DNA of 64,000 nucleotides from Pollutibacter soli (GTDB taxonomy: Bacteria; Bacteroidota; Bacteroidia; Chitinophagales; Chitinophagaceae), in assembly GCA_029269725.1 (NCBI GenBank), contig JARJHS010000005.1, forward strand, positions 186,001 through 250,000. Direction: 5' to 3'. The notes under the pieces were generated by a model. It was not told the origin of the DNA. It made no database searches and was given only the letters and a program-made list of their open reading frames with translations. Positions 13,810 to 29,713 of the stretch are shown here, piece by piece. Numbering within the stretch: the stretch's first letter is position 1; each line of letters begins with the position of its first letter. The position numbers and the translations under genes were made by a program.

Positions 13810-13882
13810 GATTCCGTAGCTCAGCTGGTAGAGCAATACACTTTTAATGTATGGGTCCTGGGTTCGAGTCCCAGCGGGATCA
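13810..13882 (+). tRNA. tRNA-Lys (anticodon TTT)
   Basis: Cloverleaf folds by eye: acceptor GATTCCG / CGGGATC with one G-T pair, D arm GCTC...GAGC, anticodon stem ATACA/TGTAT with loop CTTTTAA (anticodon TTT at 13843-13845), and T arm CTGGG-TTCGAGT-CCCAG. The discriminator base is A and CCA is not encoded. The 3' half is the integration site of the adjacent element, which restores the gene on this side. Confidence 0.97.
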
Positions 13883-13906
13883 CTGGAAATTAATGAAACC
13901 TGCTCT
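13862..13906. repeat. attL: direct repeat in the tRNA-Lys 3' end
   Basis: 45 bp beginning GTTCGAGTCCCAGCGGGATC are identical to 29669-29713. Similarity continues about 20 bp further with three mismatches. The repeat covers the T arm, the acceptor 3' strand and the first part of the tRNA terminator. Confidence 0.93.
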
Positions 13907-13926
13907 AGTAGCGGGTTTCGTCGTTT
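13895..13926 (+). terminator. tRNA-Lys terminator, attL copy
   Basis: GAAACCTGCT (13895-13904) pairs with AGCGGGTTTC (13910-13919) around a 5-base loop, followed by GTCGTTTT. The stem contains one non-Watson-Crick pair that the attR copy lacks. Confidence 0.75.
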
Positions 13927-13978
13927 TAGGGACAATACATTAGTCGAAAAATTAGCCACTTTGCAAAATACCTCTTTT

Positions 13979-14452
13979 ATGAAATCGTTATTATTTCTAC
14001 TTCTTTTTGCAACAACCAGCTGCTTTTGTCAAGATAAGATCACTAATATCAAAAATGCAAAGGTTGTCAACATTTATGGCAATGGAAAAACAGTAATTGG
14101 TAAGCTGATAATAAACCCCACATTGGTTACTAACTTAAAAATTATAAAGTATACTCCGAATGTGCTTGAAAATGGAATCTATATAACAACCATAGCACTT
14201 GACAATAAAGAAAAAGTTCCGCATTTTGGAACCGATATCACAATTTCAACTGACAAGCCAATGGAAGATGTTGAGGCAATGAGTGGCGCAAAGATTAGTG
14301 TTAATTACGAATTGAATCCAGAGAGAACGGTGTACCGGATTATAGCGTCACAAATAAACAGAGGCAGACCGGGTACAGATTTATTGACATTTACGATTAA
14401 GAGTAAAGAAAAAATATTTTGCACAATTACAGGTGTCGATGGAAAGCTCTAA
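13979..14452 (+). CDS. Secreted protein of unknown function at the left end of the element
   Basis: 157 residues from ATG 13979; the reading frame is open back into the tRNA, but the signal peptide MKSLLFLLLFATTSCFCQ fixes this start. The mature part begins DKITNIKNAKVVNI and continues as an all-beta-looking domain without enzyme motifs. Cys at 15 could be a weak lipobox (TTSC). The segment ITNIKNAKVVNI is nearly repeated at the C-terminus of the convergent membrane protein (ITNIENAETVNI). The stop codons of the two genes overlap by 4 bp. Lying at the element border and transcribed against the phage genes, it may be a lysogenic-conversion or immunity factor; that is inference. I do not recognise the family. 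Confidence 0.7.
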   Translation: MKSLLFLLLFATTSCFCQDKITNIKNAKVVNIYGNGKTVIGKLIINPTLVTNLKIIKYTPNVLENGIYITTIALDNKEKVPHFGTDITISTDKPMEDVEAMSGAKISVNYELNPERTVYRIIASQINRGRPGTDLLTFTIKSKEKIFCTITGVDGKL

Positions 14453-14820
14453 TGTATATTAACTGTCTCCGCATTTTCGATATTAGTGATTAGAGTTTTA
14501 TTTATAACAATTGGCTTGTTAGATACGGTATCCCATCCAATCCCTACCTTTTTCAAATTTTCCTTGAATTCAGCTTGTGACTTGCTCATTTCAATAACTG
14601 TATTTTGAATTTGATTGAGTTGAGTTGATTTGTTCTCGTTTTCAAGTGCATCTCTTTTTATTTTATCGATACCGAGCCAAAAAAGAAGAATGGCACACAC
14701 AACTAAAAAAATAATATAAACCCAATTCTTTTTTGGATTTTTTATCGCAAAGAATAGCGGAACAAATAAGACTGCTAATCCAAAAAATGCATTCATAAAA
14801 TCTTTGAATGTATCCCACAT
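14449..14820 (-). CDS. Two-helix membrane protein of unknown function
   Basis: 123 residues from ATG 14820 (MWDTFKDFMNAFFGL); a TTG nine codons upstream is in frame but unneeded. Two membrane helices (about residues 9-27 and 32-51) separated by a basic KNPKKN turn, then a polar helix likely to be a coiled coil (ENENKSTQLNQIQNTVIEMS), and a tail ending TLITNIENAETVNIH. The tail repeats a motif found in the convergent secreted protein. Its position, 39 bp after terL on the same strand, and two-helix layout recall a phage holin or an exclusion protein, but there is no adjacent lysin, so the role stays open. Confidence 0.7.
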   Translation of the reverse strand: MWDTFKDFMNAFFGLAVLFVPLFFAIKNPKKNWVYIIFLVVCAILLFWLGIDKIKRDALENENKSTQLNQIQNTVIEMSKSQAEFKENLKKVGIGWDTVSNKPIVINKTLITNIENAETVNIH

Positions 14821-14859
14821 GGTTAAGTGTTTTCCACAAAATAACAAATGGGATGGTTA

Positions 14860-16047
14860 TTAAAACCACGAAATCGAATACCTACCGCTTCCCACAGCCT
14901 TACCTGTTCCAAAACATTTAACAGCCAATGCCAGTGCCATAACACAATCGTCGTTGAACATAGGTGGAGCTGAATACCTTGTTATACTATTGTGAAAGCT
15001 ATATTCGAACGTGTGCAGCTCATTTGTTATCGGTCCGGCAGGGAAAGTGATTTCTCTTTTCTGGATTGCTTTCACCAAGCCTTCCATTAATTGTTGTTTG
15101 CTTGAGCTGGAAAACTTAAAACCTTCAACAAGTGGCAATGTCGTTTGCAGATCTTCCACGACTGGATCACCCACGCCTGTACTATCGATAAGCGATTTTA
15201 CTTTAGCGATGTTCGGAAGTTGTTGAATCTCTTTTATCGTATGCCTCCAATCTCTTTGGAACCTATCAAAATAACATACTGACCCGTATTTATCCAGGCC
15301 AATGATAACTGTGAAATCCGAAGACTTCGCTAAGTCGATACCGTAACAAACCACAGGATGATTACTGATCGGTTCAATACACCTGTTTATATATTCAGTC
15401 CCAAACGGGTTTGCTGCGTTTTCTGCTGGGTTAGCCATATACTCCTGTTCGAATACTGCTGCCGGTAATGATTCTTTGATTAACTCAATTTCATTCTGAT
15501 CTAGATAGGGATTATCGTAAGAGGTATACTTCCAGCTGGCCCAGTCAGGTTCTCCGTTTATTCCTTTTAAATACAAAGAATAAAAGAAGTTTTTTCCCCT
15601 TGGTGTACTGAGGAAATAAGCCTTGCCTTTATAATCGGCTAGGGTTGCACGTATGGCGTTATTCCAACCATCTTCAAGATCCGGGATAAATGAGCCTTCG
15701 TCAATGATGGCAAGGTGAAATTTTAAGCTTCTGAAGTTGTCCAATCGTTCTCCAGTAAAGAATTGAATTTCCCCGCCTGTAATAAGCTTTCCTTCAAGAT
15801 CGGTTTTGTTAAACTCTCCGACCTCATCAGGTAAGGCATTCATTAACGAATCAAAGAACTTCTTTGCTAGTTTATAATTGGGCGTGACATAGGCACATTT
15901 CTTTCCTTCAAGTGCATTCTTAATTAAAATGATTTGAGCAAGTTCACTTTTACCGAACCTTCGCCCACACATCAAAACATTAAATCTCGACTTGCTTTTC
16001 AGTATCTCCCTTTGATTAATATGCGGCTCTGGTAATTCTATTATCAC
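14860..16047 (-). CDS. terL: Phage terminase large subunit
   Basis: 395 residues with both expected domains. ATPase: Walker A GRRFGKS at 28-34, Walker B LAIIDEG at 112-118 and the coupling motif STPRGKN at 147-153. Nuclease (RNase H-like): first Asp in YGIDLAKSSDFTVI (238), second in SLIDSTGVGD (288) and a third acidic pair in FNDDCVMALALA (366-367). TerL drives DNA into procapsids through the portal and cuts the concatemer. All catalytic residues are present. It overlaps the small subunit gene by 4 bp. Without capsid genes in the element, it would have to act on a helper's procapsid or be residual. Confidence 0.93.
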   Translation of the reverse strand: MIIELPEPHINQREILKSKSRFNVLMCGRRFGKSELAQIILIKNALEGKKCAYVTPNYKLAKKFFDSLMNALPDEVGEFNKTDLEGKLITGGEIQFFTGERLDNFRSLKFHLAIIDEGSFIPDLEDGWNNAIRATLADYKGKAYFLSTPRGKNFFYSLYLKGINGEPDWASWKYTSYDNPYLDQNEIELIKESLPAAVFEQEYMANPAENAANPFGTEYINRCIEPISNHPVVCYGIDLAKSSDFTVIIGLDKYGSVCYFDRFQRDWRHTIKEIQQLPNIAKVKSLIDSTGVGDPVVEDLQTTLPLVEGFKFSSSSKQQLMEGLVKAIQKREITFPAGPITNELHTFEYSFHNSITRYSAPPMFNDDCVMALALAVKCFGTGKAVGSGRYSISWF

Positions 16048-16445
16048 AAAATTGTTTTACCCCTCTTAAATACAACTTCAATCTTTCCTTTTGTTTCTAC
16101 GGAAGCGGTTTCTTTCCAACCGAAGTTGTGTGCAAGTGCAAACCTGAGTCCTGCCGTATTACCTTCACCGTTAACAATAGCCCGTGCCATACGTGCTTCG
16201 ATTTCTTCCATGATCTGATTGCATTCTTCTCTGTAAGCAGGTTTGCTCCGGTAGCTTCTCCAGGTTGGCTGTGATACCCCGATATAAGAAAGGAAATGAC
16301 CTAGCGTGTAAACGATAGGATCTCTGATTTCAACAACCTTTCCGGCTGATGCATGCTGCTTCCTTTTACCGCTGTCGCATTGCCGTTTATACAGCACCCA
16401 TTTTGCCCAGATATCCGAGCCGGAATTATATTTCTTTGCACTCAT
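16044..16445 (-). CDS. terS: Phage terminase small subunit
   Basis: 133 residues. It carries a basic N-terminus, SYIGVSQPTWRSYRSKPAYREECNQIMEEIEARM (an HTH-like DNA-recognition segment followed by the oligomerisation helix) and GLRFALAHNFGWKE, a pattern seen in Bacteroidota TerS proteins. TerS recognises the packaging site and hands DNA to TerL, which directly follows with a 4-bp overlap. In phage satellites a private TerS is a typical means of redirecting packaging to the satellite genome. Confidence 0.85.
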   Translation of the reverse strand: MSAKKYNSGSDIWAKWVLYKRQCDSGKRKQHASAGKVVEIRDPIVYTLGHFLSYIGVSQPTWRSYRSKPAYREECNQIMEEIEARMARAIVNGEGNTAGLRFALAHNFGWKETASVETKGKIEVVFKRGKTIL

Positions 16446-16505
16446 ACTTTAAATTTTGAAAAGGCCAGAAAAGTAGAAACTAATCGGCCGTCATGAAAAC
16501 CCACA

Positions 16506-16706
16506 TTAGAAAGAAGATTCGTTCAATATTTTTAATCCGCTTCTGCTGATCTTCACATTCAGGTTTTCAAACCTCCTGCGGAAGATTTGTCTTTCCTCTG
16601 AGTCTTCGCCTTCATCAGGAATAATGCTCCATTCCTCACACAATCGCAGTAGCTTTTTAAACTCTTTCAGGATCTCCTGATAACTTGGTGTATTACTTTC
16701 CTTCAT
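16506..16706 (-). CDS. Small phage-type protein, unknown
   Basis: 66 residues, charged and probably helical (SYQEILKEFKKLLRLCEEW; RRRFENLNVKI). It overlaps the preceding gene by 14 bp, which implies translational coupling in the terminase operon. No motif is recognised. Confidence 0.6.
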   Translation of the reverse strand: MKESNTPSYQEILKEFKKLLRLCEEWSIIPDEGEDSEERQIFRRRFENLNVKISRSGLKILNESSF

Positions 16707-17196
16707 TGAATGCGAATTCTCTCATCATTACCGCAGATATATGTTCCGGGTTGTTAGGAAACTCTTCACGCAGTTCTTTCAATCTTGTATCCATCCTGGC
16801 TGCAAACTCTTCCTCTTTCTTTTTTTTGTTTGTAAGATAAATAGTCATGCCTGCCGCCGATTTCTCTAATGCACGTTCACGTTTTTCCCGTTCAACTTCT
16901 ACCGGCCAAGGCTCAACAATTTTTGGCTTTTCGACTTGGAACTTTGCCGCCATCTGCTGATTCATTTGATCCTGGTTTTGTGAAACGGTGTCAAGTTTTT
17001 TGTCAATCTTCACAAGCACCTGATACAACAGTGGCAAAAGTTCATTGATGTCAATAGGTTGTTCTGTTGGCTTAGCTTCCGGCTTTGCTTCTGCCGGTTG
17101 CACCGTATCAAGTTTTTGCTTTACAACAGGTCCTGTAATAGGCTTAATTGATGGCTTCGCTTGTGGTTTTGAAAAATTAAAATTGAATAGTGACAT
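16693..17196 (-). CDS. Proline/lysine-rich coiled-coil protein of the terminase operon
   Basis: 167 residues. The first 50 are low-complexity (repeated KP, AKPEAKPTEQP); the middle (ELLPLLYQVLVKIDKKLDTVSQNQDQMNQQM) is a strong coiled-coil candidate; the C-terminal part is highly charged (VEREKRERALEKSA, NKKKKEEEFAARMDTRLKELREEF). The layout would fit a scaffold or adaptor, which is interesting in an element that lacks its own capsid gene, but no family is recognised. Confidence 0.6.
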   Translation of the reverse strand: MSLFNFNFSKPQAKPSIKPITGPVVKQKLDTVQPAEAKPEAKPTEQPIDINELLPLLYQVLVKIDKKLDTVSQNQDQMNQQMAAKFQVEKPKIVEPWPVEVEREKRERALEKSAAGMTIYLTNKKKKEEEFAARMDTRLKELREEFPNNPEHISAVMMREFAFNEGK

Positions 17197-17205
17197 ATGT
17201 TTTAT

Positions 17206-17406
17206 TTAAAAATTATTTCTTTCTTTAACTAACGGTGTACGGTATGCGTTGGCCTTGTAAGACACACAGATAATTGATAAGTCGTAATACTTCTGTAGAT
17301 CGGTTTTAAGCCTGGTTAGTTCCTCTCTATTGATTTTATTGCCATCGTGAATTACGTGGTCAGGATCGCCTGGAATAGTGTGGTATGTGAAGTGTCGGTG
17401 TTTCAT
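17206..17406 (-). CDS. Small hypothetical protein
   Basis: 66 residues starting MKHRHFTYHTIPGDPDHVIHDG. It overlaps the upstream gene by 4 bp and ends 9 bp before the next, so it is a member of the same polycistron. No domain is recognised. Confidence 0.55.
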   Translation of the reverse strand: MKHRHFTYHTIPGDPDHVIHDGNKINREELTRLKTDLQKYYDLSIICVSYKANAYRTPLVKERNNF

Positions 17407-17885
17407 AGCTTCCTGATTAAGGTTAACCGGTTCTCATACTTTAATAGGGAATAGGTATAGTCTTCATGTTGGAACTGCGCGCACAGATCGCCATCATGAT
17501 CGATGATCATATTAACCGCAGGAGATTCTATCTGATACGTATATCTGCCCAGGGATAGCCCTACCAACTTCTTCAGCTCGGCAGTACTCATGTATTCTTC
17601 CAGTAACCCATGATAAGAATGTAATACTGATAGTTCTTCCAGGTTCTTAAAGTCTTCCGGCAGTACATTAAACTTCCCGTTCTCTACAGTGAAACCGAGA
17701 GCCAGCATAGCAAGCCTCAGATTATGTTCATTTACATTCTCTTCCAGACCGTTTAAAATGTATAGATGCTTATCCAACGCTTTTCTCAGTTCTGCGACAG
17801 GAGTGATATGAGAATGATAAACAGAGCAAGGAAATAACCATGTAAGGATCTTCTCCAAGTATTCGACAGTGTAATGGCTTGTCAT
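17403..17885 (-). CDS. Hypothetical protein of the terminase operon
   Basis: 160 residues, soluble, mixed alpha/beta. The middle segment (MSTAELKKLVGLSLGRYTYQI) could be a short helical DNA-binding element but does not match a family I know. It sits between the ribbon-helix-helix gene and a 4-bp overlap with the next gene. Confidence 0.55.
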   Translation of the reverse strand: MTSHYTVEYLEKILTWLFPCSVYHSHITPVAELRKALDKHLYILNGLEENVNEHNLRLAMLALGFTVENGKFNVLPEDFKNLEELSVLHSYHGLLEEYMSTAELKKLVGLSLGRYTYQIESPAVNMIIDHDGDLCAQFQHEDYTYSLLKYENRLTLIRKL

Positions 17886-17911
17886 ATGTACTTCTTTTAA
17901 GGGTGGTGGGG

Positions 17912-18085
17912 TTACTTCTCAAGCGATTCAAGCAACTTTCTCCTGATGAAGTATGCCCTGTTAGCGCCTGTCTTTTTCTCTACCGAGTCGTTAAACCTGG
18001 ATTCAACCAAGTCCTTTTGCTGATCATTCAGCCGGATAACTACTGTTTTCGATAGTTTGTCTTCGTCTTGTTTTTTCGTGCTCAT
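17912..18085 (-). CDS. Short ribbon-helix-helix-like DNA-binding protein
   Basis: 57 residues. After a charged N-terminus, KTVVIRLND looks like the DNA-contacting beta strand of a ribbon-helix-helix protein, followed by helices QQKDLVESRFNDS and GANRAYFIRRKLLESL. This is the layout of small relaxosome/MobC-like or repressor proteins. It is the first gene of the terminase operon and borders the origin-like gap, so it may regulate that operon or assist replication or packaging. The start ATG at 18085 is the only one available. Confidence 0.65.
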   Translation of the reverse strand: MSTKKQDEDKLSKTVVIRLNDQQKDLVESRFNDSVEKKTGANRAYFIRRKLLESLEK

Positions 18086-18155
18086 ATACTGATGTTCTCT
18101 ATTAAATGCGCATTGTGTTTACTTGGGCAGTTTAACCCGTACAATTCTCGTATCA

Positions 18156-18166
18156 ATAAATGCGGG
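18156..18166 (-). promoter_or_regulatory. ATAAATGCGG box near the terminase operon start
   Basis: ATAAATGCGGG at 18156-18166 matches the two boxes in front of the tape-measure gene (25030, 25071). Partial copies lie at 18209 (ATAAATGC) and 18102 (TTAAATGCG). It may be a shared operator for the two structural operons. Confidence 0.4.
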
Positions 18167-18433
18167 TAGTGTTAGCTTATTAAATTTAAACAGAGAGAAT
18201 TCTGCCGAATAAATGCCTGCCGACTAATTACGCGACTCAGTTTTTATCGGGAAAGGCAGTTATTGAAATCGTTATCTATTTATTATCAACCACTTAGTTA
18301 GTGGGTTGGATAGTACCAAGCGGACTATCCACCAAGCAGGACGCGGGATTACGCTGCTCCTAATGTCGGTAGCGGTGAAAGGCGTGGGGTGGTGGGTATA
18401 ATTCATCCACTAACTTAAGTAATTGTCTTGTTT

Positions 18434-18631
18434 TGTATCAAAGAGGGGTGATACACAGCAAACCCTTATCCCAATTGCATTACAGGTAATTTGTATCATG
18501 TATCAGTATCACTAAGGTTGTTTTTCTCCCTTTCTTATTATTATTAAAATAATTATTTAGGGGTGTTGATACAAATCGGCTAAGACTCTTATCCAGCGTG
18601 CATTTCGCGTGTAAACCCCCGGGTTGATACA
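18434..18631. repeat. Six TGTATCA/TGATACA iteron-like words
   Basis: TGTATCA at 18434, 18492 and 18499; TGATACA (its reverse complement) at 18449, 18567 and 18625. Six 7-bp words in 200 bp next to replication genes suggest initiator or repressor binding sites. Confidence 0.55.
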
Positions 18632-18632
18632 T

Positions 18633-20228
18633 TTACGCCCAAGCCTCTTTCGCCCTGGCAAGTGTTGGTCGGCTAATACCTAGTAATTTAGCAGCCTCAG
18701 TATCGTTTTTGCCTTCTTTCTTTAATCGATTGTATTCATCGCGGTCAATATTCTTCTTTCCCTGGTTCTGTCTTACAATACTTAATGCATGAATGCAATG
18801 CGATTTAATGGCTGGTAGGAGACTGATTGCAACTCTCCAGCAATGATCAGGCACAACCGACGATCCGACACCTTCGAAGCCTGATAATGTGGCTGCAATT
18901 CTCTTAACGATTAAAGCCATTCTTAGGCATGATGCGCCAATGTCGCCACCATACTTTTCCTCTAAATCTCTTTTATCTTGCATGGCACTAAACAGGTCTA
19001 ATTCCTGTTGAGCAGTAAATTCGAGATAATGCAGTTCATCGCTCCACAAATCGGACCGCTTTAAGATATCCCTTTGCAAACCTTGACACATCTCACCTAT
19101 TAAATCCCGTTGCTGTTTTCCTGACCTATATTCCATGAATGTCGGAGGAATTGTATAATACCATAACCGGGAGAAAAGTCCATTGTATTCGCTCGGAATA
19201 AGTTTCTTTAATTGATCGTGAGTGCCGCTTAACATGATAGCAAGTCTTGGGTTTTCGACTATATAACTTTCTCCTTCCCCTTTCCTCTGCCGGGCAAGAG
19301 GTTCGTGATGAAATACCTTTCTGATAATGTCGGAAAAACCTCCAAAGTCTTTGTTCTGGTTTCCTTGAATAAGTGTATCGACTTCGCTATCGTATGCGAA
19401 ACCACCAATAGGATTGTCCCTTAATTTTTCGACTAATGCAGCCTGTGTTGTGTCGCTGGCTGACATAGCAAAACAATATTTAATAGGCTTTCGTGGTTCT
19501 TCTATCGTCTCAATTTTTTTGTTTCCCTTCTCGACTTCTTTCAATTGCTTTTTAAAGTCCGATAGGGCAAGCTTATAATTTCTTAGCGCATTAGCCTGCA
19601 TTAAATTAGCCTGCTGAGTTATAGCCCCCACTAATGTGTTTCCATACCTTGTCAAACCTTTCCCGCTCCCGGCAGCAGCAACCACAAGTGAAAGCAGATG
19701 AGGGGAGTACTCCTTTACATCGTTATCAGCGCCGTGATAGAACCGATACCGGCTAAATGCAGCGGACAAAGCGGTTAGCATTCCAATTAATAGCACATCT
19801 CTTTTCCGCCGTTCATCTACCTGGAAGCATATTTCTTTTAGATGTTCCGGGAGGTTGTTATAAACTTCATCACTAAAGCAATCACCCGGGGTATCGGATT
19901 TTATATGTATGCCGGTCTGATCGGGATATTTCTCCTCTCTCCGTTCAATGATATTAGCAACAGTGATATTCTTCATGCTATCAGAATCACTCGCTATATA
20001 CTGATTAAAAAATTCTGAATGCTTTAGGAGAGATTCGCTTGAAATCCCGTCAACAGTAACTAGTTTACCAACTACTGACCAAACGTCATCATAGTGAAGG
20101 TCACCGATCCCACATCTTTTTGCTATCATCCGTTCGATCTCGTTATCTGGTATTGATCTCACTTCGGAAATACCTTTTCTTTCCTTTGCATTAGTTTCTA
20201 CACCTCTTAAAGCACTATTCAGATCCAT
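18633..20228 (-). CDS. DUF3987-type replication ATPase/helicase-like protein
   Basis: 531 residues. A P-loop AAAGSGKG (residues 184-191) within LLSLVVAAAGSGKGLT, an acidic Walker-B-like GFAYDSEVDTL, and LSGTHDQLKKLIP match the DUF3987 layout, found beside BT4734/VirE-type primases in Bacteroidota mobile elements. The last 23 residues form an HTH (EAAKLLGISRPTLARAKEAW). It overlaps the primase-like gene by 10 bp. Together they probably replicate the element after induction. The helicase assignment rests on family context rather than a full set of helicase motifs. Confidence 0.8.
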   Translation of the reverse strand: MDLNSALRGVETNAKERKGISEVRSIPDNEIERMIAKRCGIGDLHYDDVWSVVGKLVTVDGISSESLLKHSEFFNQYIASDSDSMKNITVANIIERREEKYPDQTGIHIKSDTPGDCFSDEVYNNLPEHLKEICFQVDERRKRDVLLIGMLTALSAAFSRYRFYHGADNDVKEYSPHLLSLVVAAAGSGKGLTRYGNTLVGAITQQANLMQANALRNYKLALSDFKKQLKEVEKGNKKIETIEEPRKPIKYCFAMSASDTTQAALVEKLRDNPIGGFAYDSEVDTLIQGNQNKDFGGFSDIIRKVFHHEPLARQRKGEGESYIVENPRLAIMLSGTHDQLKKLIPSEYNGLFSRLWYYTIPPTFMEYRSGKQQRDLIGEMCQGLQRDILKRSDLWSDELHYLEFTAQQELDLFSAMQDKRDLEEKYGGDIGASCLRMALIVKRIAATLSGFEGVGSSVVPDHCWRVAISLLPAIKSHCIHALSIVRQNQGKKNIDRDEYNRLKKEGKNDTEAAKLLGISRPTLARAKEAWA

Positions 20229-20983
20229 TTCAATAAGTTTTTATTGATGTATAAATCTGGTGCATAGAAAAGGAAAAATGGCTGTGAAATAGCTTTCATT
20301 TGTCCATCTATTTTAACCTTATGCTTCTCCAAAAAGTATTTAGTCAGAATAGCTGTTGCGTTATGATATGCACGACTATATTCGTCCGAAGTCCATTCAT
20401 CCCGTAGATACAACAGAGGCTTTAATAAGAGTAAAGCTTTAACACCATTACCAGAAACAGACTTACAGGCAAAAAGAATATCTAACTGTTTATCATTGGT
20501 TACCGCCTTCACTACTGCGTCTGCATTATCTATTTTATCGATGTCAAGTTGATAGGTGAACCCAGGTAGCTTCAGACCTTTGTTGCAGCGTGGATTGAAA
20601 ACTCCTGAATGAGTTATATAAGGTAATTGACTTTTTAACTTATCCTTCAAAGACAGATCTCCTAATTCTTTTGCCTCCTGGATTTGCCGTGCAATCTCTT
20701 TTAATTCTGCACTCAGCATCATCCTGATCACATCGGTGATATTAACAGTTTTAGAGTCATTAACATTAAGCTTATGAGGATATAAAGAGAACTGAGGGAT
20801 ATACTGAAAACCTGAGTTTAATCTTTGTTTCAGTACCTTGCGACTGCCAGAAAAAATATATCTTGTATGTTTTGCATCAGGTTGAATCCACAAGTAAGAA
20901 TCCGGTTTTGTATATCCTGAATATTGAGAAAATGAGACTTGTTCAACCTCGTTATGTGCGGATAAAACGTTAACTTTGTTCAC
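20219..20983 (-). CDS. BT4734-like primase N-terminal domain protein
   Basis: 254 residues. PYITHSGVFNP and GFTYQLDIDKID match the BT4734-like (VirE_N) domain, whose DxD (Asp147, Asp149) fits the catalytic pair of archaeo-eukaryotic-type primases; KSVSGNGVKALLLLKP follows as expected. The DUF3987 gene overlaps downstream by 10 bp; this pair is often one fused protein. Likely role: primer synthesis for element replication. It is shorter than fused homologues, so it depends on the neighbour for helicase activity. Confidence 0.8.
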   Translation of the reverse strand: MNKVNVLSAHNEVEQVSFSQYSGYTKPDSYLWIQPDAKHTRYIFSGSRKVLKQRLNSGFQYIPQFSLYPHKLNVNDSKTVNITDVIRMMLSAELKEIARQIQEAKELGDLSLKDKLKSQLPYITHSGVFNPRCNKGLKLPGFTYQLDIDKIDNADAVVKAVTNDKQLDILFACKSVSGNGVKALLLLKPLLYLRDEWTSDEYSRAYHNATAILTKYFLEKHKVKIDGQMKAISQPFFLFYAPDLYINKNLLKWI

Positions 20984-21034
20984 GTCACTAAATTTTTTTA
21001 TGCCCTGGGATTTCTATCCTGGGGCATGTTGTTT

Positions 21035-21340
21035 TCAAAGGATAGATGTAGCTCTTATATGTTTTTTGATATCGCTGTATCTGAATCTGTAAGCACGTCG
21101 CCCATGCGGAATACGTGGAATACATTTTTCGACAACCAGCTTTTCAAAAGTCGGCCGACTTACTCCAATCAGTTCGCTCGCTTCAACGGTAGTGACTAAC
21201 CGATTTTCGTTATCGTTAAACCTGATCTTTTCCAGTTCGTCTTTGAGTGAGTTTTGTACGGTTTGCTGAATGATCGCCAGCACGTCATTAACTGGAATTA
21301 ATGCCAATGCATCCGTCACCTGATAGCTTCGCTTAGACAT
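21035..21340 (-). CDS. HTH_17/excisionase-like DNA-binding protein
   Basis: 101 residues. The C-terminal half is a MerR-like winged helix: TTVEASELIGVSRPTFEKLVVEKCIPRIPHGRRAYRF, as in AlpA/Xis-type proteins of Bacteroidota elements. It leads the replication module (51 bp before the primase gene), so it could act as excisionase, activator or both. Confidence 0.8.
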   Translation of the reverse strand: MSKRSYQVTDALALIPVNDVLAIIQQTVQNSLKDELEKIRFNDNENRLVTTVEASELIGVSRPTFEKLVVEKCIPRIPHGRRAYRFRYSDIKKHIRATSIL

Positions 21341-21474
21341 AATTTTTTAGTCTTGATTAGATAAAATTGTTACTAGGCTCGGATTAAAATCCAAACCGGT
21401 TATGGCTAGAATCGTGCTGGGGTTGAATGGAATTGACTGGTTTAGCTGAAACTAAAGGCCTGTAGTACTGTTTT

Positions 21475-23045: not shown

Positions 23046-23048
23046 ATT

Positions 23049-25025
23049 TTATCCTCCTAATGTTGCTTGTCTTGAAATTTGTGAGTCTCTACGTTGTGCA
23101 TCAGAAATTTCTTTCTCGACTACGTAGGCCTTTACTGTCCTGTTATTGGTTGCGTTGATAGTGTCCTGTCCGAGTTCAACCCTTGGGTTTATTAATTGTC
23201 CTTGTGGCGTCAACGGAGCTGTTGCGCTTGATGATATAGATGGCATACTTCCACCTCCTGCGGCACCTGGGACCTTTACAGACAGGATCTTCTTTACATT
23301 AGCTATACCCGCTGCGACTGCTGCCGCTGCTGCTATTGCACCGAGAATAGGACCTACTACTGTAATTCCGGCAAGTGAGGCAAATGCAGCTGTAGCACTC
23401 TGGTAAGTATTAATGGTTGTAGCAGCTATCGCTAAAGCTTTCCCCGCTGCCGTCTGTTCACCCGCTACTTGTGCTGCTTGTGCTGCCAGGTCTGCCGCCG
23501 CGTTTAAAGCCTTCTGTCTGTTTCGTGCTTGTTGTTCTTCGATTGCCTGCCGTGCTTTTGCGTTAGCGTCCAGGTTCTCTGTCTTCTGCTGTTCAGTTAG
23601 TGTCGCATCTGCAAGAATAGCCTGGTCAAGGTCATACAACCATTGTTTTCTCTCATTAGCTGATATCTTTTCGTTTTCTGCATATGCGGCTACTGCTTCC
23701 CGTAAGGATTGCTGCTGAAGTTCTTTCCTGTCCTTCTCGTCCTGTTCAGCCTGAATACGTGCATCTTTTTCTTTCTGGAATTTGTCTTGTAGGGCTTTTA
23801 ATTCCAGATCATCATACTTCTTATTGATCTGCATCAATGCGTTCCTGTAGGCTTCGAGGGCTGGCAATACACTTTGCGAACCGGCCTGAAGTATTTTAAC
23901 CTGACGATCAACTTCCCGGCTTGCTGCGTCAAGTTCTTTATCTCTGTCGCTTTTTCCAAAGTCACCGTTTTCTATGGTTAATTGTTCAGAAAGTGCTTTT
24001 GCTTCCTCAACAAGTTTTTTTCTGTCTTCAATTGCTTTTTTCTCCAGGGATATCCTTTGATCAAGAGCCTTTTTTCTTTCCTCTCTTTGTTTAGTAGTTT
24101 GGGCAACGAGGAAATTTAATTCAGCAAGCTCCATTGCATCTTTTTCTCTCCGGAGTTCGTCCTGTGCCTCTACTTCATCCTTACCCAAACCCCTAACCGA
24201 TTCAAGATAATTTTCTCGGCTCTTGATACGATACTTTGAATATTCCTGTTCGAGCTTGAATATTTCCTCTTCAGATTTACCGGCAAGCTTTGCTTTTGCT
24301 ATTGCAATTTTTTCCTGTTGCGCTAAAAACTCCAGGCCTGCTTTTAATCCAGCCTGGGAAGATTCAACAATACTTTTGTTAAGTTCTTTTTGTGCTTCAG
24401 CGGCTTCATTGCTTTTGTTAATGAAGCTTTGTAGGGCTGATATGGCTTCACCAAGAGCAATTAACAGAACCCCTATGCCTGTCGATATAATTGCCGTCTT
24501 CAGGACCTTAAAGGATACTGAGGTAGTTTCAGCGCTAATCCCCAGGGCTTTCATGCTCACCGCTGTTGCCTTGTTAGCTAATTCATTCGCTTTAATTACA
24601 ATCGTTGAGTTTTTAACTGAAGCTGAGAGAACGTTGAAGGTGTCCTTTAACTCCAGGATGTTATTTACCCCCTGGCTGAGTGCTAATGCTGACTGTACTT
24701 TCAAAAGTGTCTTCTCGACTTCCTCACTTTCTACACCTATTAGCCCCAGCGCACCCTGGAATGCTGTAAAACCTCCCAGAACGCCATTTATAGCCCCTTG
24801 TAGGGCTTGAAACTTCCGATCAGGATTAAATGCATCTGCTAACGCTTTCGCGTCACCGAGGGCATCTCTGAAGCCTGCAACTTTCTTCGCTGCTGCTATA
24901 GCTCTTTCGTCTGTCGCCCCGAATTTATCAACCAGGGCGGTTAATTCATTGTTTGCCTCCCGTAGATCCTTTTTGAAGTTGCCGACATTTACCTCTAGGT
25001 CTAAACCAATCTTTTCCTCTGCCAT
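23049..25025 (-). CDS. Tape-measure-like coiled-coil phage protein
   Basis: 658 residues. It opens like Bacteroidota phage tape-measure proteins (LDLEVNVGNFKKDLREANNELTAL), has hydrophobic segments near 185-210 and 555-590, long charged coiled coils (about 215-510) and a polar tail with VKAYVVEKEISDAQRRDSQISRQATL. Tape measures set tail length and help DNA entry. At 658 residues it would imply a short tail, and no tail tube, chaperone or tip gene is next to it. It is the first gene of the operon ending with the portal, preceded by duplicated TTATAAATGCGG boxes. Confidence 0.75.
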   Translation of the reverse strand: MAEEKIGLDLEVNVGNFKKDLREANNELTALVDKFGATDERAIAAAKKVAGFRDALGDAKALADAFNPDRKFQALQGAINGVLGGFTAFQGALGLIGVESEEVEKTLLKVQSALALSQGVNNILELKDTFNVLSASVKNSTIVIKANELANKATAVSMKALGISAETTSVSFKVLKTAIISTGIGVLLIALGEAISALQSFINKSNEAAEAQKELNKSIVESSQAGLKAGLEFLAQQEKIAIAKAKLAGKSEEEIFKLEQEYSKYRIKSRENYLESVRGLGKDEVEAQDELRREKDAMELAELNFLVAQTTKQREERKKALDQRISLEKKAIEDRKKLVEEAKALSEQLTIENGDFGKSDRDKELDAASREVDRQVKILQAGSQSVLPALEAYRNALMQINKKYDDLELKALQDKFQKEKDARIQAEQDEKDRKELQQQSLREAVAAYAENEKISANERKQWLYDLDQAILADATLTEQQKTENLDANAKARQAIEEQQARNRQKALNAAADLAAQAAQVAGEQTAAGKALAIAATTINTYQSATAAFASLAGITVVGPILGAIAAAAAVAAGIANVKKILSVKVPGAAGGGSMPSISSSATAPLTPQGQLINPRVELGQDTINATNNRTVKAYVVEKEISDAQRRDSQISRQATLGG

Positions 25026-25027
25026 AC

Positions 25028-25080
25028 TTATAAATGCGGTAACTCAAAGTTTATTTATGAGATTACCATTATAAATGCGG
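25028..25080 (-). promoter_or_regulatory. Duplicated TTATAAATGCGG operator-like boxes
   Basis: The 12-bp word TTATAAATGCGG occurs at 25028-25039 and 25069-25080, 41 bp (about four helical turns) apart, in front of the tape-measure gene. A TAAACTTTG sequence near 25043-25051 (minus strand) is close to the -7 consensus and lies between them, so binding could block the promoter. Confidence 0.5.
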
Positions 25081-25118
25081 GAGGCCGAAAAATGGGCGGA
25101 GAATTTTCGAAAAAAAGT

Positions 25119-25126
25119 TAAATTTG
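25119..25126 (+). promoter_or_regulatory. -7 promoter element TAAATTTG
   Basis: Exact TAnnTTTG match 23 bp before the ATG of the membrane cargo gene; no clear -33 TTTG. The predicted start near 25132 leaves a leader of about 17 bases. Confidence 0.45.
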
Positions 25127-25148
25127 TAGATATCCAATATCGCTAACG

Positions 25149-25769
25149 ATGCACCAACAACGAAGTTTTTTTGAAAGACATCTTCACTGGATAATTATAA
25201 TCGCATCGGTAATTATTTTCACTCCTTTTGTTTGTAAATACAGAGAAATTTTCCCAGGCAAGGCAGTATCTCACCACACAAACTGGGCTGAGTTCGCCAC
25301 CTTCTTTTCCCTGCCAATTAGTGTTATCAATGCCATTGCTGTATTTTATTTAGGTTATAAAGTTTATCTAGCACAGAAAAGGAGGGATGAATGGGAAAGA
25401 ACTCAGTCGCTTGCTGACTTGAAGTTTGTCGCAGAATTAGGACAGGTATACAAGTTGTATAATATGGGGAATTCTGTAGCTAATCATGTGATAGTAGCGA
25501 AAGTACCGAGTGGGACAAATGAAGGCACTACTAATAATACTACCACAATATCCAGAATTCATAGATGTTACTCAATTCCAGCCGGCGGACACCTTTCTTT
25601 GCTATTTACCGAACAAACAGAAAAGCTTTATGCTCGATATCATAATGGAGAGCGATTTGTGTTGCTCACATGTGTATTTGACGAGAACCATGAAATTTCA
25701 GATTCAGTAATTGAAAATTTTATCGTTGCTAATTCAACCCGTACCAATGAAATTATTCTTCGTACGTGA
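25149..25769 (+). CDS. Membrane-anchored beta-domain cargo protein, unknown
   Basis: 206 residues. Two membrane helices (about 12-30 and 50-72) are followed by a basic stop KVYLAQKRRDEWERTQ and a soluble domain with LYNMGNSVANHVIVAKVP and YSIPAGGHLSLLFTEQTEKLYARYHNGERFVLL. This resembles the common membrane-plus-beta-sandwich layout (NxGNxxAxxV ... PAGGxxxL). It has its own promoter and terminator and runs opposite to the phage genes, typical of cargo expressed during lysogeny such as superinfection exclusion or defence. No enzyme motif is visible. Confidence 0.65.
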   Translation: MHQQRSFFERHLHWIIIIASVIIFTPFVCKYREIFPGKAVSHHTNWAEFATFFSLPISVINAIAVFYLGYKVYLAQKRRDEWERTQSLADLKFVAELGQVYKLYNMGNSVANHVIVAKVPSGTNEGTTNNTTTISRIHRCYSIPAGGHLSLLFTEQTEKLYARYHNGERFVLLTCVFDENHEISDSVIENFIVANSTRTNEIILRT

Positions 25770-25865
25770 AAAATCCCGTTTTAAAACGTTTTTTTCTCCT
25801 TGCCATTAGTCCTACCAATTTTAATTTCGAACCAGAATAATGCATTATTACAGGAAGACACCTGG

Positions 25866-25899
25866 ACCCCGGACACTGAAACCGGGGTTTTATCTTTTT
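25866..25899 (+). terminator. Intrinsic terminator after the membrane cargo gene
   Basis: ACCCCGG (25866-25872) and CCGGGGT (25882-25888) form a perfect 7-bp stem with a 9-base loop, followed by TTTATCTTTTT. It lies directly against the stop codon of the convergent gene. Confidence 0.85.
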
Positions 25900-26651
25900 A
25901 GATAACTTTCCGCAACATCTAAACATTCTTTAGCAATTTCTTTATTAGGCTCAGCGTCGATATTTCGCATCTTGTGTAAAAATGCTGCTTCTAAAAAATT
26001 AAATAAAGCCCCAATATCGCTTCTAGTAATAACGCCCCGCCCGCCATACGCAGACATATAATAATTGATATAAATCTGTCGAGGTACTGGATATCCAGCA
26101 CCAACAATTCTTGCAGTGAGGGATGCCTCGACCGATTTGATACTTTTATCAATACATCGTTGATATTCGGATTTCTCGTAATGGAGGAATGCCTCGTTAT
26201 AGTAACTTGAAGCAAAATCTAAATATATCTTCTCAGCAGAATTATTTTTATCAATTAACCTTTCAAGTACAAAACCAACAGCGAGTAGGCCAATTATAAT
26301 TGCAACTACCATCATTACTGGAGTGCCTGATATCGAACTTAGAAGCCAGGATGAGAAAAATAGAATAGGTGATGCGGCAGAAATATAAAGAAATAGATGC
26401 GACAAAACATTAAAGACCTTAATTAACTTAGGCAACTCAAATTGCAAACTGATTACCAACTGCTCCATTAGAAAAAAATAAAATGCAAGCACTAGCCCAA
26501 TAGTCGCATAAAAGAGCATATCATACATCGTTGGTCGGTAGGAGAAAATCGGAACAATTTTTTCTTCAAGAAAATCCTTGAAGGCACTAAGGCTGATAAC
26601 ACATGATACAAATGCGATAGCAAATCCAGAATCGTTTTTTAAAAAATTCAT
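25890..26651 (-). CDS. Four-helix membrane protein with HEPN-like C-terminal domain
   Basis: 253 residues. Hydrophobic helices near 9-27, 43-67, 78-102 and 107-130 are followed by a soluble all-helical domain: YLDFASSYYNEAFLHYEKSEYQRCIDKSIKSVEASLTAR and the end FLHKMRNIDAEPNKEIAKECLDVAESYLKR. The end resembles HEPN domains, whose last helices read (L)RNxxAH...EAxxxLxxAxxxL; here the His of the R-x4-6-H RNase motif seems replaced by Glu (RNIDAE). HEPN domains are frequent in toxins and phage defence. A membrane-bound HEPN-like protein in phage cargo suggests an abortive-infection or sensing role, but the fold call is by eye. Confidence 0.6.
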   Translation of the reverse strand: MNFLKNDSGFAIAFVSCVISLSAFKDFLEEKIVPIFSYRPTMYDMLFYATIGLVLAFYFFLMEQLVISLQFELPKLIKVFNVLSHLFLYISAASPILFFSSWLLSSISGTPVMMVVAIIIGLLAVGFVLERLIDKNNSAEKIYLDFASSYYNEAFLHYEKSEYQRCIDKSIKSVEASLTARIVGAGYPVPRQIYINYYMSAYGGRGVITRSDIGALFNFLEAAFLHKMRNIDAEPNKEIAKECLDVAESYLKR

Positions 26652-26698
26652 AAGTTAGCTTTGTAACATTAAGATAATATTTTTTTACATTTAGCACC

Positions 26699-26893
26699 AT
26701 GCCCGCGTACCTTGTAATAGTGAAACCGAATGACGAATCGGTTAGGAGAGAGCTGATAGACCTTATCAGTGATGATATAGAATATGTTTTCGATTGGCAA
26801 AAAAAATTGCACCATCGCAAACATCGAAATAATATTGAATACTTCGACATAAGGATGGTGCATGAAAAATACCCGGATGGGATCTTATGCTGA
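26699..26893 (+). CDS. Small hypothetical cargo protein
   Basis: 64 residues (MPAYLVIVKPNDESVRRELIDLISDDIEYVFDW...), charged, no Cys until the end, codon use ordinary for the element. Divergent from the HEPN-like gene and convergent with the next one, overlapping it by 9 bp at the 3' ends. The function is unknown; it could be antisense noise, though the composition looks coding. Confidence 0.45.
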   Translation: MPAYLVIVKPNDESVRRELIDLISDDIEYVFDWQKKLHHRKHRNNIEYFDIRMVHEKYPDGILC

Positions 26894-27259
26894 TTGTAGA
26901 TCGAAGTGAACTTCGTTCAGCATGTAATACAACCACTGAAAAGCCTCAAAAGCTTCATCTTTCTGACATTCTGTTAATTGTGCAAATTCTCTGCTTTTGA
27001 TGTAGCTCTTAAACCATCCTGAAATACCGTAATCGCATGTTGCTGCTGTATCAACAGCATCCTCATTTTCGATTAGCAACTTTGCAAACTCTGTTTGCTG
27101 ATCTTTTGAAAATCTCTGTTCCATGATCGTGTGTTTTGGTGAAAAAAAAGGTTCATCGTTTCTTGGCATTACTCTTGAAGGGGCTGTGATTGCAAGAAAA
27201 TTCAATACAGATTCTTGAGTAACTCCTTTACTGTGTTCGCTTTTTTGATAATGATTCAT
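26885..27259 (-). CDS. Hypothetical protein overlapping the first recombinase gene
   Basis: 124 residues from ATG 27259 (MNHYQKSEHSKGVTQESVLNFLAI). The frame is open further but this is the first ATG with typical spacing. It overlaps the end of the recombinase gene by 32 bp. The C-terminal half is acidic and aromatic (ISGWFKSYIKSREFAQLTECQKDEAFEAFQWLYYMLNEV). No family is recognised. Confidence 0.55.
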   Translation of the reverse strand: MNHYQKSEHSKGVTQESVLNFLAITAPSRVMPRNDEPFFSPKHTIMEQRFSKDQQTEFAKLLIENEDAVDTAATCDYGISGWFKSYIKSREFAQLTECQKDEAFEAFQWLYYMLNEVHFDLQSA

Positions 27260-28145
27260 GATGTACGTGTTTAAGTCTGTTAATATCGTTGTGTAAATAT
27301 TGACTTGTAGCAACCAGGGAGGTATGGCCTAGCAAACCCTGAATTGCTAAGAGATTAGCGCCGTTATTCATTAAATGTGTTGCAAAGGTGTGTCTCAGAA
27401 TATGCGGGTTGCGCTGACCCTCGGGCATATGTGGTGTTAAATGATTTGCAACAACACAGTGAATTGATTTGAGATCCATTTGCCCGCGCCTTGTTGAGAC
27501 AAACAGGAAAGTAGATGAATATCCTTTCTTTTTCTTAGCTCTCTGATAGGTTTTAACTTTCTTGCTCAGTGCTTCGCTGATAGGTACAAGCCTTTGATTT
27601 CCTCCCTTGCCCGTTACCTTTATTAGAAGTCTTGCATGGTCTATATGGGAGTGCTGCATATTAGCAAGTTCTTCCCGCCTGATACCAGTTTGATAGAACA
27701 TTTCAAGAATGAGTTTATCTCTCATTCCAATTATGCTTTTCTTAAACTCCCCTGTCAAGATCTTCTGCATAACATCCTCCTGAACAAAAGAGGGAAGTCG
27801 TGTCGCAATTTTCCTTTGCGTTAACCCGTAAGAGGGATTTGTCTCTAAAATGCCAATTCTCCGAAGGTGTTTGAAAAATGATTTTAGGCTATACAATTTG
27901 CGGTTAATGCTCCGGGCAATCATGCCGGACTGGCTAAGTTCAACTAGCCAGGACCGAATGTTATTCCGGGTAATATCTAATACATCCGGTTGCTGATCAA
28001 TAAATTTCAGAAATACTTTTACGTCATCTGTGTAAGCTCTGATTGTGTGCCTTGAGAAACGCTTTATAAGCTTCAGATAGTCCTCGAATGAGGGAATACA
28101 GGCATGATACCGCAATGCGGTTTTTGTCATAAATTCGCCTTCCAT
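27228..28145 (-). CDS. XerC/D-like tyrosine recombinase
   Basis: 305 residues: an N-terminal SAM-like core-binding domain (about 15-105) and a catalytic domain with Arg156 (TGIRREEL), Lys180 (VTGKGG), His248-x-x-Arg251 (HILRHTF), His274 (LLGHTS) and Tyr283 (SQYLH). All six active residues are present. ATG 28130, preceded by GGAAGG, is an alternative start. It is shorter than the neighbouring integrase and of the Xer/transposon type. It could be a second recombinase for excision or dimer resolution, or a remnant of another insertion. It lies 70 bp downstream of the integrase. Confidence 0.88.
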   Translation of the reverse strand: MEGEFMTKTALRYHACIPSFEDYLKLIKRFSRHTIRAYTDDVKVFLKFIDQQPDVLDITRNNIRSWLVELSQSGMIARSINRKLYSLKSFFKHLRRIGILETNPSYGLTQRKIATRLPSFVQEDVMQKILTGEFKKSIIGMRDKLILEMFYQTGIRREELANMQHSHIDHARLLIKVTGKGGNQRLVPISEALSKKVKTYQRAKKKKGYSSTFLFVSTRRGQMDLKSIHCVVANHLTPHMPEGQRNPHILRHTFATHLMNNGANLLAIQGLLGHTSLVATSQYLHNDINRLKHVHHESLSKKRTQ

Positions 28146-28177
28146 TGTTTAATTGCAATTTTTAATTGTGATTAATC

Positions 28178-28208
28178 ACCCGGTAGGTACCAACTACCGG
28201 GTTTTTTA
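28178..28208 (+). terminator. Perfect 9-bp stem terminator facing the recombinase genes
   Basis: ACCCGGTAG (28178-28186) and CTACCGGGT (28194-28202) with a 7-base loop, followed by six T on the plus strand. Both neighbouring genes are on the minus strand and there is no T-run on that side, so it would stop antisense transcription entering the integrase gene. Confidence 0.7.
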
Positions 28209-28215
28209 TTTCCAT

Positions 28216-29496
28216 CTATACCGCCTTCAGTTTTGATTTATTCTCGGGTAGCATAGAAATCATTTTTTCCTTAGCTCGCTTTGCCGCTTTTATTGGATTG
28301 TTTTTATCGTAATCGATGAATATCCTCTCAGATGTATGACCAGTCATTTTCATAGCGTCATAGGAAGAAACACCTCTGTCCAGAATATTACTTGTAAATG
28401 ATCTTCTTGCAGTGTGTGTTTTAATTAGCTTATAGAGTTCCGTTCCGATTTCTGTACTTAGTCTACCTTTTTCATCTAAAGAAGCCAGTTTCCCAATTGT
28501 TTTCAATGCCCGGTTGAAATACTGGTTCGTAACTGCATCCGGCAGGCTGTTGGGTTTGTGTTTATACTTCTCCATTATCTTCAATGCCAGATCATTTAGC
28601 GGAACAGCAATTTCTATCTTTGTTTTTTGAGTTAACATCTTTAGGTATGTCGCTCCATCTTCGTCTTTAATGAAGTTTTCTTTCTTGATATTTACCAGGT
28701 CACTATACCTAAGCCCAACACAACAACCGAAAACAAACAGATCTCTGATCGGTTCCAGACCATCAGTGTTTTTTAAATCAGTCTTATAAAGCTTTAGTAT
28801 ATCCTTCTCATCGAGGTGAACTGATTTAACCTTTGGACGAAACACTTTAAATGCTTTAAGTTTAAACGCGAAGTTCTCCGTAAGATCTTCCTCCGCTGCG
28901 CGGCTCATTACGATTTTTAGGTTCTTGATTTCTTTGCCTATACTTCCCTCACTTAAACCTTCTTTTTTCAAGAAGCTTACATATTCCTTGTAGAATTTTA
29001 ATGTGATTGATTCGAAACTTGCTTTCTTATTGAATGCTTCAAGATGCTTTTTCGAGGTCTGAAATGTTTTAAGTGTACCAGGAGAATAATGTGCTTTGTC
29101 GTTTATTAGTTGATCCAGCAAATCAAAAAGTGGAGTTTGAGTAGAATTCTTCTTTTGCTCAGATACTTTTGCGGCTTTTGACTTTGGAAAAACAACGGCT
29201 TTTATTTTTTCACGCAGTTCTGCCGGTTCAGGAATGACATTAGTCTTTAGAATATTGTTCATCTCCACTTCAACGGCTTTCTCGATACTATTTTTCAGAT
29301 CCTTAAAATATCCAAACTCATAGGGATAAAGCTTTTCATACTTCTTAATGATGGCTTGGTTTTGCCAGTGATCAGGCTTGATTGAAATGCCAAGAGACAT
29401 TATCATTTTCTTTCCATAATACCTCTGCTGACAGGTAATCAATGATTTTTTTGTATTGGGATTGACCGATTGGAGAAAGAAAGATGGGCGGTTCAT
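28216..29496 (-). CDS. Tyrosine integrase of the element
   Basis: 426 residues, the usual size for Bacteroidota element integrases. An arm-binding N-terminus (SLGISIKPDHWQNQ), a SAM-like domain (about 122-215) and a catalytic domain with Arg263 (VGLRYSDL), Lys near 291-293 (TQKTK), His361-x-x-Arg364 (HTARRSF), His387 (TGHTS) and Tyr396 (FIDYDKNN). It catalyses recombination between attP and the tRNA-Lys 3' end. It lies 172 bp from attR, the usual position. Confidence 0.93.
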   Translation of the reverse strand: MNRPSFFLQSVNPNTKKSLITCQQRYYGKKMIMSLGISIKPDHWQNQAIIKKYEKLYPYEFGYFKDLKNSIEKAVEVEMNNILKTNVIPEPAELREKIKAVVFPKSKAAKVSEQKKNSTQTPLFDLLDQLINDKAHYSPGTLKTFQTSKKHLEAFNKKASFESITLKFYKEYVSFLKKEGLSEGSIGKEIKNLKIVMSRAAEEDLTENFAFKLKAFKVFRPKVKSVHLDEKDILKLYKTDLKNTDGLEPIRDLFVFGCCVGLRYSDLVNIKKENFIKDEDGATYLKMLTQKTKIEIAVPLNDLALKIMEKYKHKPNSLPDAVTNQYFNRALKTIGKLASLDEKGRLSTEIGTELYKLIKTHTARRSFTSNILDRGVSSYDAMKMTGHTSERIFIDYDKNNPIKAAKRAKEKMISMLPENKSKLKAV

Positions 29497-29668
29497 GGTG
29501 ACTAATTGATATCTCTAAGATAAGGTAATTAGTCGTTAAATGAGTCGTTTTCTTTAAAAACTTTGGAAAATAGTTGAAAGTTTGGATTTGCTAAAGCTCA
29601 GTTTAGATAGGCATTTCACTGGATTATTGTGGGTGTTTTGAAAAATGTTGAAAGAGTCCCGGGGTTAA

Positions 29669-29713
29669 GTTCGAGTCCCAGCGGGATCACTGGAAATTAA
29701 TGAAACCTGCTCT
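29669..29713. repeat. attR: direct repeat of the tRNA-Lys 3' end
   Basis: 45-bp exact copy of 13862-13906. Only the last 21 bases of the tRNA are present here, so this is not a tRNA gene. The bases between the integrase gene and attR include GTTGAAAG at about 29573 and 29648 and two AGTCGTT words near 29532-29550, possible arm-type sites. Confidence 0.93.

Follow-up and report, generated by a model that had tools for sequence, protein, structure and literature searches.

Two related integrative elements in Pollutibacter soli encode a terminase and a portal without a recognised capsid and are proposed to be phage satellites

A 64,000-nucleotide stretch of the Pollutibacter soli genome (contig JARJHS010000005.1; G000:C33:186001-250000, hereafter the window, from a genome, G000, of 6.1 Mb in 37 contigs) contains an integrated element of 15.8 kb, termed E1, which encodes both terminase subunits (TerL and TerS) and a portal and has no recognisable capsid gene, and a second element of the same plan, E2, is present elsewhere in the genome. 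It is proposed, with a probability of roughly 0.6, that E1 and E2 are integrative phage satellites with a private vertex of terminase and portal, which would borrow the capsid and tail of a helper phage. As judged from comparison of the two elements, the packaging set looks like one that is maintained and co-regulated without a shell.

E1 spans window positions 13862-29734 and starts at the 3' end of a tRNA-Lys gene. It lies between attachment (att) repeats of 66 bp that are 95% identical, and the exact 45-bp repeats that an earlier note on this stretch had described at the tRNA are the first part of them. The gene set comprises TerL, TerS, the portal, a tape-measure homologue, a DUF3987/BT4734-N replication module, a helix-turn-helix (HTH) protein, an integrase and a XerC/D-like recombinase (Table 1), and family matches bear out the identities that the earlier note had given to the terminase subunits, the portal, the tape-measure-like protein, the replication module and the integrase. 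The ATPase and nuclease residues of TerL align with those of phage TerLs, and a search with the TerL profile retrieves solved phage terminases. TerS matches GP3_package, a family presumably linked to phage P22 and headful packaging. For the portal, a model of moderate confidence (mean pLDDT 59) gave 50 listed fold matches, all of them phage and gene transfer agent portal or neck entries with TM-scores below 0.55, and the portal profile search matched no solved structure.

Capsid, protease and tail-tube families were reached by none of the 20 E1 proteins scanned against Pfam and PHROGs, which agrees with the absence of these genes in the earlier note. A complete prophage carries capsid and tail genes, and E1 does not show this set. 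Assigned genes cover 88% of E1, the five gaps of at least 100 bp include one of 238 bp at the right end, and the largest is 547 bp, in line with the earlier note, which had seen no unexplained coding space large enough for the missing genes beyond the small proteins at 16506-17885 (66, 167, 66 and 160 aa). The earlier note had further asked whether a capsid fold hides among these small proteins. A low-depth model (two sequences, mean pLDDT 69) of s167, the one conserved protein above 70 aa without an assigned function, has no shell fold and consists of helices throughout, behind a disordered N-terminus. Judging from the shape of this model and from its position just before s66b and TerS, s167 is the best candidate for a scaffold or assembly factor, although this is a guess. 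A hidden capsid was considered and rejected, given that the shared small proteins have 64, 66, 66 and 167 aa, that s167 is predicted to be helical, that no gap in E1 exceeds 547 bp and that the capsid-like proteins of related phages have 304-327 aa. The same points make it highly improbable that E1 and E2 are satellites of the capsid-forming phage-inducible chromosomal island (cf-PICI) type with a capsid of their own too diverged to be recognised, even though cf-PICIs carry a terminase and a portal in the portions of the literature available (PMC10690885), as is the case here, and family models also struggle to recognise the capsid-like proteins of the related phages. The earlier note had also seen no lysis genes, and while none is assigned, a 132-aa membrane protein at 14449-14847 weakly matches a spanin PHROG (0.008) and, below the cut-off, Pfam families of holins (0.013) and a baculovirus capsid protein (0.013); because of the spanin and holin matches a putative lysis gene may be present there. 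This gene and a second small gene at 13970-14452 lie beside attL on opposite strands and encode a similar peptide (NIKNAKVVNIYG versus NIENAETVNIH), and they are perhaps related cargo.

E2 was marked by a search with the E1 portal, which found a 91%-identical copy elsewhere in G000. The element (G000:C32:114875-129898; 15.0 kb) lies between exact 24-bp repeats, one of which is at the 3' end of a tRNA-Arg gene, and its order from the tRNA is cargo, TerL, TerS, s66b, s167, s66a, a 54-aa relative of the E1 57-aa protein, a replication gene, HTH, portal, cargo with g64, and integrase. The packaging set is unchanged, whereas the replication gene is VapE-like with a BT4734-N domain where E1 has DUF3987. 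No capsid was recognised in E2 and no tape measure was found in it by tblastn; the E2 portal start codon stands at the place of the E1 tape start codon, with the same leader ahead of it. Without recognisable capsid and tail genes, apart from the tape-measure homologue of E1, neither element could build a virion alone, which is the mark of a satellite. The earlier note had proposed a search for the same gene set in other genomes, and among the genomes and contigs searched the set was found only in G000, but twice, at different sites. The cargo of E2 includes a DUF4062 protein and a Schlafen AlbA_2 protein (L014:9021-10199 and L014:18864-19778, L014 being the locus that carries E2). Around the cargo gene ends of both elements there is a stretch of 63 columns that is 83% identical between them (window 25750-25812, L014:8967-9026); within it a short palindrome precedes a series of T's, which by eye resembles a terminator.

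Identities between the two elements range from 41% for the integrase to 95% for g64, and the ratios of nonsynonymous to synonymous change (dN/dS; pairwise Nei-Gojobori estimates from our own script) are low, if rough, from 0.03 for g64 to 0.22 for s167 (Table 1). In the integrase, the HTH protein and the 57-aa protein synonymous change is saturated and no ratio was obtainable. g64, which is encoded on the other strand from the packaging genes, has no match among the Pfam or PHROG families; because its antisense reading gives a dN/dS of 1.6, the plus-strand frame is taken as coding, and its E2 copy is at L014:7666-7860. Broken frames or relaxed selection, which would be expected of a decaying prophage, were not found in the remaining genes of either element. 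On these sequence comparisons, two elements that had each lost function would not show such ratios.

The packaging genes are split between two operons, and a 10-base motif, CCGCATTTAT, links the two separated operons in both elements on the sequence evidence. It was reached from the leader common to the E1 tape measure and the E2 portal, which gave an 11-mer that, with one mismatch allowed, also matched before the terminase operons and left 10 common bases. In the 64-kb window it occurs three times, always in E1 and on the coding strand, with two copies ahead of the tape-portal operon and one ahead of the terminase operon (0.33 expected; 0 of 100 shuffles, made post hoc, reached three). The 20 kb of L014 contain two copies, one preceding the E2 portal and one the E2 terminase operon (0.06 expected; 1 of 200 such shuffles reached two). 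The search covered the window, L014 and 30 other loci, namely 24 outside G000 and 6 G000 loci that partly overlap L014.

Relatives of the E1 TerL and portal sit in ordinary siphophages. Seven of these (L019, L024, L062, L063, G096, G028 and G1021) resemble E1 in TerL (41-60% identity where it was seen, in L019, L024, G096 and L063), in the portal (24-32%; G096, G028, G1021, L062 and L063) or in the tape measure (25-40% to six phage tape measures; the best PHROG of the E1 homologue, 1e-8, has no assigned function, and its best tape-measure PHROG gives 3e-7), and unlike E1 and E2 they keep head and/or tail genes. In G096, G028, G1021, L062 and L063 the tape measure is followed by the protease, a scaffold-like and a capsid-like gene, two small genes and then the portal, and the distance from the tape stop to the portal start is 3.2-3.6 kb versus 3 bp in E1. 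Of these labels, the protease is well supported, the scaffold is assigned by position, and the capsid mainly by size and place and weakly by family models: the capsid-like protein matches PHROG 1623 'virion structural protein' in G096, G977 and G1021, Pfam Phage_capsid below the cut-off in L062 (E 0.0005), and only a PHROG of unassigned function in G028 and L063. Five of the six capsid-like proteins have no Pfam match, and a profile of the six matches no solved structure.

Because in the five related phages the tape measure is followed by a head block with the portal as its last gene, the neighbouring tape measure and portal of E1 represent the phage order with the head block missing, and from this comparison the structural operon is a phage operon minus its head block or one in which tape and portal were brought together. 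What departs from the five phages is the terminase operon, which lies behind the replication genes at the far end, so that the earlier note, which had called the gene order unlike a phage, was right about the terminase and wrong about the tape-portal pair. The exact coincidence of the phage head block with the 3 bp of E1, together with the restriction of the element to one genome, would also fit a siphophage whose head block was deleted and which is now decaying, with the packaging genes as leftovers. This history is nevertheless considered rather unlikely. E1 is not a single decaying prophage because a long-diverged E2 has the same set in open frames, with low dN/dS and the shared motif; the two elements also have att repeats and a replication module. 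Moreover, s66a, s66b, s167 and g64 were not found in the 24 loci outside G000, save for one marginal match of s66a (L021, E 0.007), and the suspicion raised in the earlier note, that E1 is a truncated version of a complete prophage, holds insofar as the relatives have a capsid-like gene at the corresponding place but not for these genes common to E1 and E2.

Portal matches occur in 3 of 195 genomes of the family (G000 included), 6 of 396 of the order and 5 of 395 of the class, in surveys with different cut-offs and overlapping samples, and TerL matches in 4 of 195 family genomes, while s167 and g64 were found in G000 only among 394 family genomes. Outside G000 a portal match was obtained in 10 genomes, and in eight of them (G096, G028, G977, G1021, G1018, G261, G214 and G227) the stretch retrieved also holds a capsid-like relative; the capsid-like queries came from G096 and G028, and the gene of G1018 lies about 14 kb from the portal. 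In G746 the capsid-like gene is 37 kb from the portal, and the G271 portal is on a 4.6-kb contig, too short to judge. The G746 locus (L046/L047, G746:C5) has a portal and neck-like genes beside host-like genes and represents a split or worn prophage, the capsid-like gene 37 kb off being the only related one found in that genome. In G977 (L044/L045, G977:C3) capsid-like, portal and neck genes are present, and tblastn with the E1, E2 and G096 TerLs only found no TerL in 35 kb.

Beyond these genomes, contigs of 84,980 species yielded no portal and five TerL loci. Two of them, at 58-59% identity, belong to one Chitinophagaceae metagenome-assembled genome (MAG), L019 with tail genes and a tape measure and L020 on a 4.7-kb contig that is too short to judge, and three are more distant (L022 with an adjoining Mu-type portal, L021, and L023 with a match of 35 residues). 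L021 is a Kiritimatiellaeota MAG contig of 7974 bp whose TerL relative (34%) is accompanied by an HTH_17 protein, a sigma-70 region 4 protein and a protein of 767 aa that weakly matches the DnaG zinc ribbon. Of the kinds of portal, capsid and tail genes tested for, none was found on it, and the contig stops less than 1 kb from TerL; it may be a further small element that has a terminase of its own. The relatives found in scans of viral contigs were only L024, L062 and L063, all of them phage-like. Misses in these species and viral scans are weak evidence because exact short peptides were required. Among named phages the portal matched only Nonlabens phages P12024S and P12024L, at 29%.

According to the proposal, the satellite would excise at its tRNA att sites and replicate with its own primase and helicase module. 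A helper phage would supply capsid protein, scaffold, protease and tail, while the satellite would make its own TerS, TerL and portal. The satellite portal would enter the helper procapsid as its unique vertex, and the matching TerS-TerL complex would dock there and fill the head with satellite DNA, probably by a headful mechanism. With its own TerS, TerL and portal the satellite would thus decide what is packaged, drive the packaging and sense the filling. Capsid borrowing, excision, portal substitution, headful packaging and the identity of the helper are steps that we infer from the genes present. Two copies per head would presumably fit without small capsids, because 15.0 and 15.8 kb are about half of a 30-36-kb phage length. 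That the satellite supplies the whole packaging vertex and the helper the shell, and thereby takes over head assembly at nucleation and excludes the helper motor from those heads, is a tentative step further, with chances somewhat short of even. It is quite improbable that the satellite packages with its own terminase while its portal serves another step, such as capsid size or head filling on a vertex built by the helper; a paper title among the references of a review names portal-vertex control of phi29 prohead shape and size, and nothing in the present data separates such a role from the private vertex.

The helper would probably come from outside, as a siphophage of the group of about 30-36 kb related to L062, L063 and L024, whose contigs of 31.4, 30.2 and 36.5 kb are not necessarily whole phages. 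It may also be that G000 harbours a helper with an unrelated capsid and terminase. The capsid-like protein of the G096 phage had no match in G000, and a profile of four capsid-like proteins had none in G000 and matched in five of six other genomes (four being sources of the profile, G746 not), with none in G183; Terminase_6N scored above the cut-off in G000 only in E1 and E2, with one match below. The idea of the earlier note, a private terminase and portal with a borrowed capsid, is upheld as regards the element's own set, the absence of a recognisable capsid and the maintenance by selection, but not by a helper in G000. The lack of a helper would suit an interference island, in which the satellite portal and terminase are decoys that poison phage packaging, the host is protected and transfer is rare or absent, as would the Schlafen (AlbA_2) protein of E2, which matches a PADLOC candidate-defence model (the DUF4062 protein, also in E2, has no such match). 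This alternative is judged unlikely, since the motor and nuclease residues of TerL and TerS itself are kept, beyond the need of a decoy, and the integration and replication modules are complete.

Several observations weigh against a satellite with a private vertex. No helper was identified in G000, E1 and E2 are known here from sequence alone, and their plan was found in one genome only among the genomes and contigs searched. The tape measure is not essential to the plan, because E2 does without it; it is dispensable on this comparison, so that tail redirection lies outside what the two elements share. The dN/dS ratios are rough because synonymous change is near saturation in several genes (dS above 1 being saturated), yet they are far from neutral. 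Since E1 and E2 reside in one cell lineage, some of their similarity could reflect later exchange between them, as the dS values of the portal (0.75) and g64 (0.65) versus TerL (2.16) hint. Finally, the shuffle figures for CCGCATTTAT came after the fact, because the motif was trimmed to 10 bases once its places had been seen, and among the 30 other loci one stray copy occurs in a phage locus, inside an open reading frame (L063:2298).

Table 1. Features of E1 in window coordinates, with identity and dN/dS of the E2 copies
Feature	Position	Strand	E2 identity	dN/dS	Remarks
TerL, 395 aa, ATPase + nuclease	14860..16047	-	85%	0.05	PHROG 2, E 1e-46
TerS, 133 aa	16044..16445	-	68%	0.16	Pfam GP3_package, 2e-10
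Portal, 414 aa	21801..23045	-	90%	0.09	PHROG 11226, 1e-35; Pfam below cut-off
Tape-measure homologue, 658 aa	23049..25025	-			no E2 counterpart found (tblastn)
s66b, 66 aa	16506..16706	-	82-83%	0.08	
s167, 167 aa	16693..17196	-	58%	0.22	helical
s66a, 66 aa	17206..17406	-	70%	0.17	
g64, 64 aa	26699..26893	+	95%	0.03	most conserved gene common to E1 and E2
CCGCATTTAT motif	18156..18165	-			before terminase operon; same place in E2
Two CCGCATTTAT motifs	25030..25080	-			before tape-portal operon
160-aa protein	17403..17885	-			no homologue found in E2
57-aa protein	17912..18085	-	35%		ribbon-helix-helix-like by eye only; no Pfam hit
DUF3987 protein	18633..20228	-			helicase-like replication gene
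BT4734-N domain protein	20219..20983	-			primase-like; replication module
HTH_17 protein	21035..21340	-	46%		excisionase/regulator-like
Variable cargo	25149..27313	.			206 aa (+), 253 aa (-), g64 (+), 142 aa (-)
XerC/D-like tyrosine recombinase	27228..28145	-			adjoins integrase; no E2 counterpart found
Integrase	28216..29496	-	41%		Phage_int_SAM_5 + Phage_integrase
attL copy	13862..13927	.			overlaps 3' end of tRNA-Lys (13810-13883); first 45 bp exact
attR copy	29669..29734	.			95% identity to attL over 66 bp

E1 and E2 are best filed under a known kind, the phage satellites, with the takeover by terminase and portal as an unproven proposal of mechanism. In the portions of the published accounts drawn on here, cf-PICIs encode both terminases together with the capsid, protease, portal and connectors and rely on the helper for tails (PMC10690885), and they average about 14 kb (PMC10690885, PMC10803314). 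E1 resembles them in having its own TerS, TerL and portal, and differs in that no capsid, head protease or connectors were recognised in either element. The classical phage-inducible chromosomal islands (PICIs), including the Staphylococcus aureus pathogenicity islands (SaPIs), share with the two elements an integrase, att repeats, a primase (VapE-like in E2), TerS and the absence of a capsid, whereas E1 and E2 possess their own TerL and portal where those islands depend on the helper's. SaPIs and PICIs are described as using the helper TerL via TerS, an adaptor or cos sites (PMC10690885), and typical sizes are given as about 14 kb for SaPIs in a review and 9.5 kb on average for PICIs (PMC10803314). 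Of the Stl/AlpA-type control of PICIs only an HTH_17 protein was seen in E1. For PICIs and cf-PICIs the available text names hosts other than Bacteroidota (PMC10803314).

The phage-inducible chromosomal minimalist islands (PICMIs) of Vibrionaceae, which have DUF3987 and DUF5906 among their detection models, are reported in the part of the source available to insert beside fis, to have no homologue of terS, sid or ppi and no capsid-remodelling gene, and to be packaged as a concatemer (PMC10803314). E1 also has DUF3987, and by analogy concatemer packaging could suit E1 and E2 if two copies fill a head; unlike a PICMI, E1 lies at a tRNA gene and carries TerS. The MulchRoom and MiniFlayer satellites of Streptomyces likewise hold a terminase and a portal but, unlike E1 and E2, also encode a capsid and scaffold and have no recognisable primase, according to the passages available (PMC10690885). 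Recent episomal satellites are described, to the same extent, with a full head set or with capsid E, protease and TerS (PMC13230959). In the available parts of a hitcher review no listed satellite family is described as having a terminase and portal without a capsid (PMC11389934), and no such satellite was found in the accessible portions of the open-licence literature searched. If the proposal is true, E1 and E2, which retain just the motor and the ring on which it docks, would stand in between satellites that retarget the helper's motor and those that bring a whole head of their own, and would suggest how cf-PICIs and PICIs could interconvert and predict that portals can be swapped between phages.

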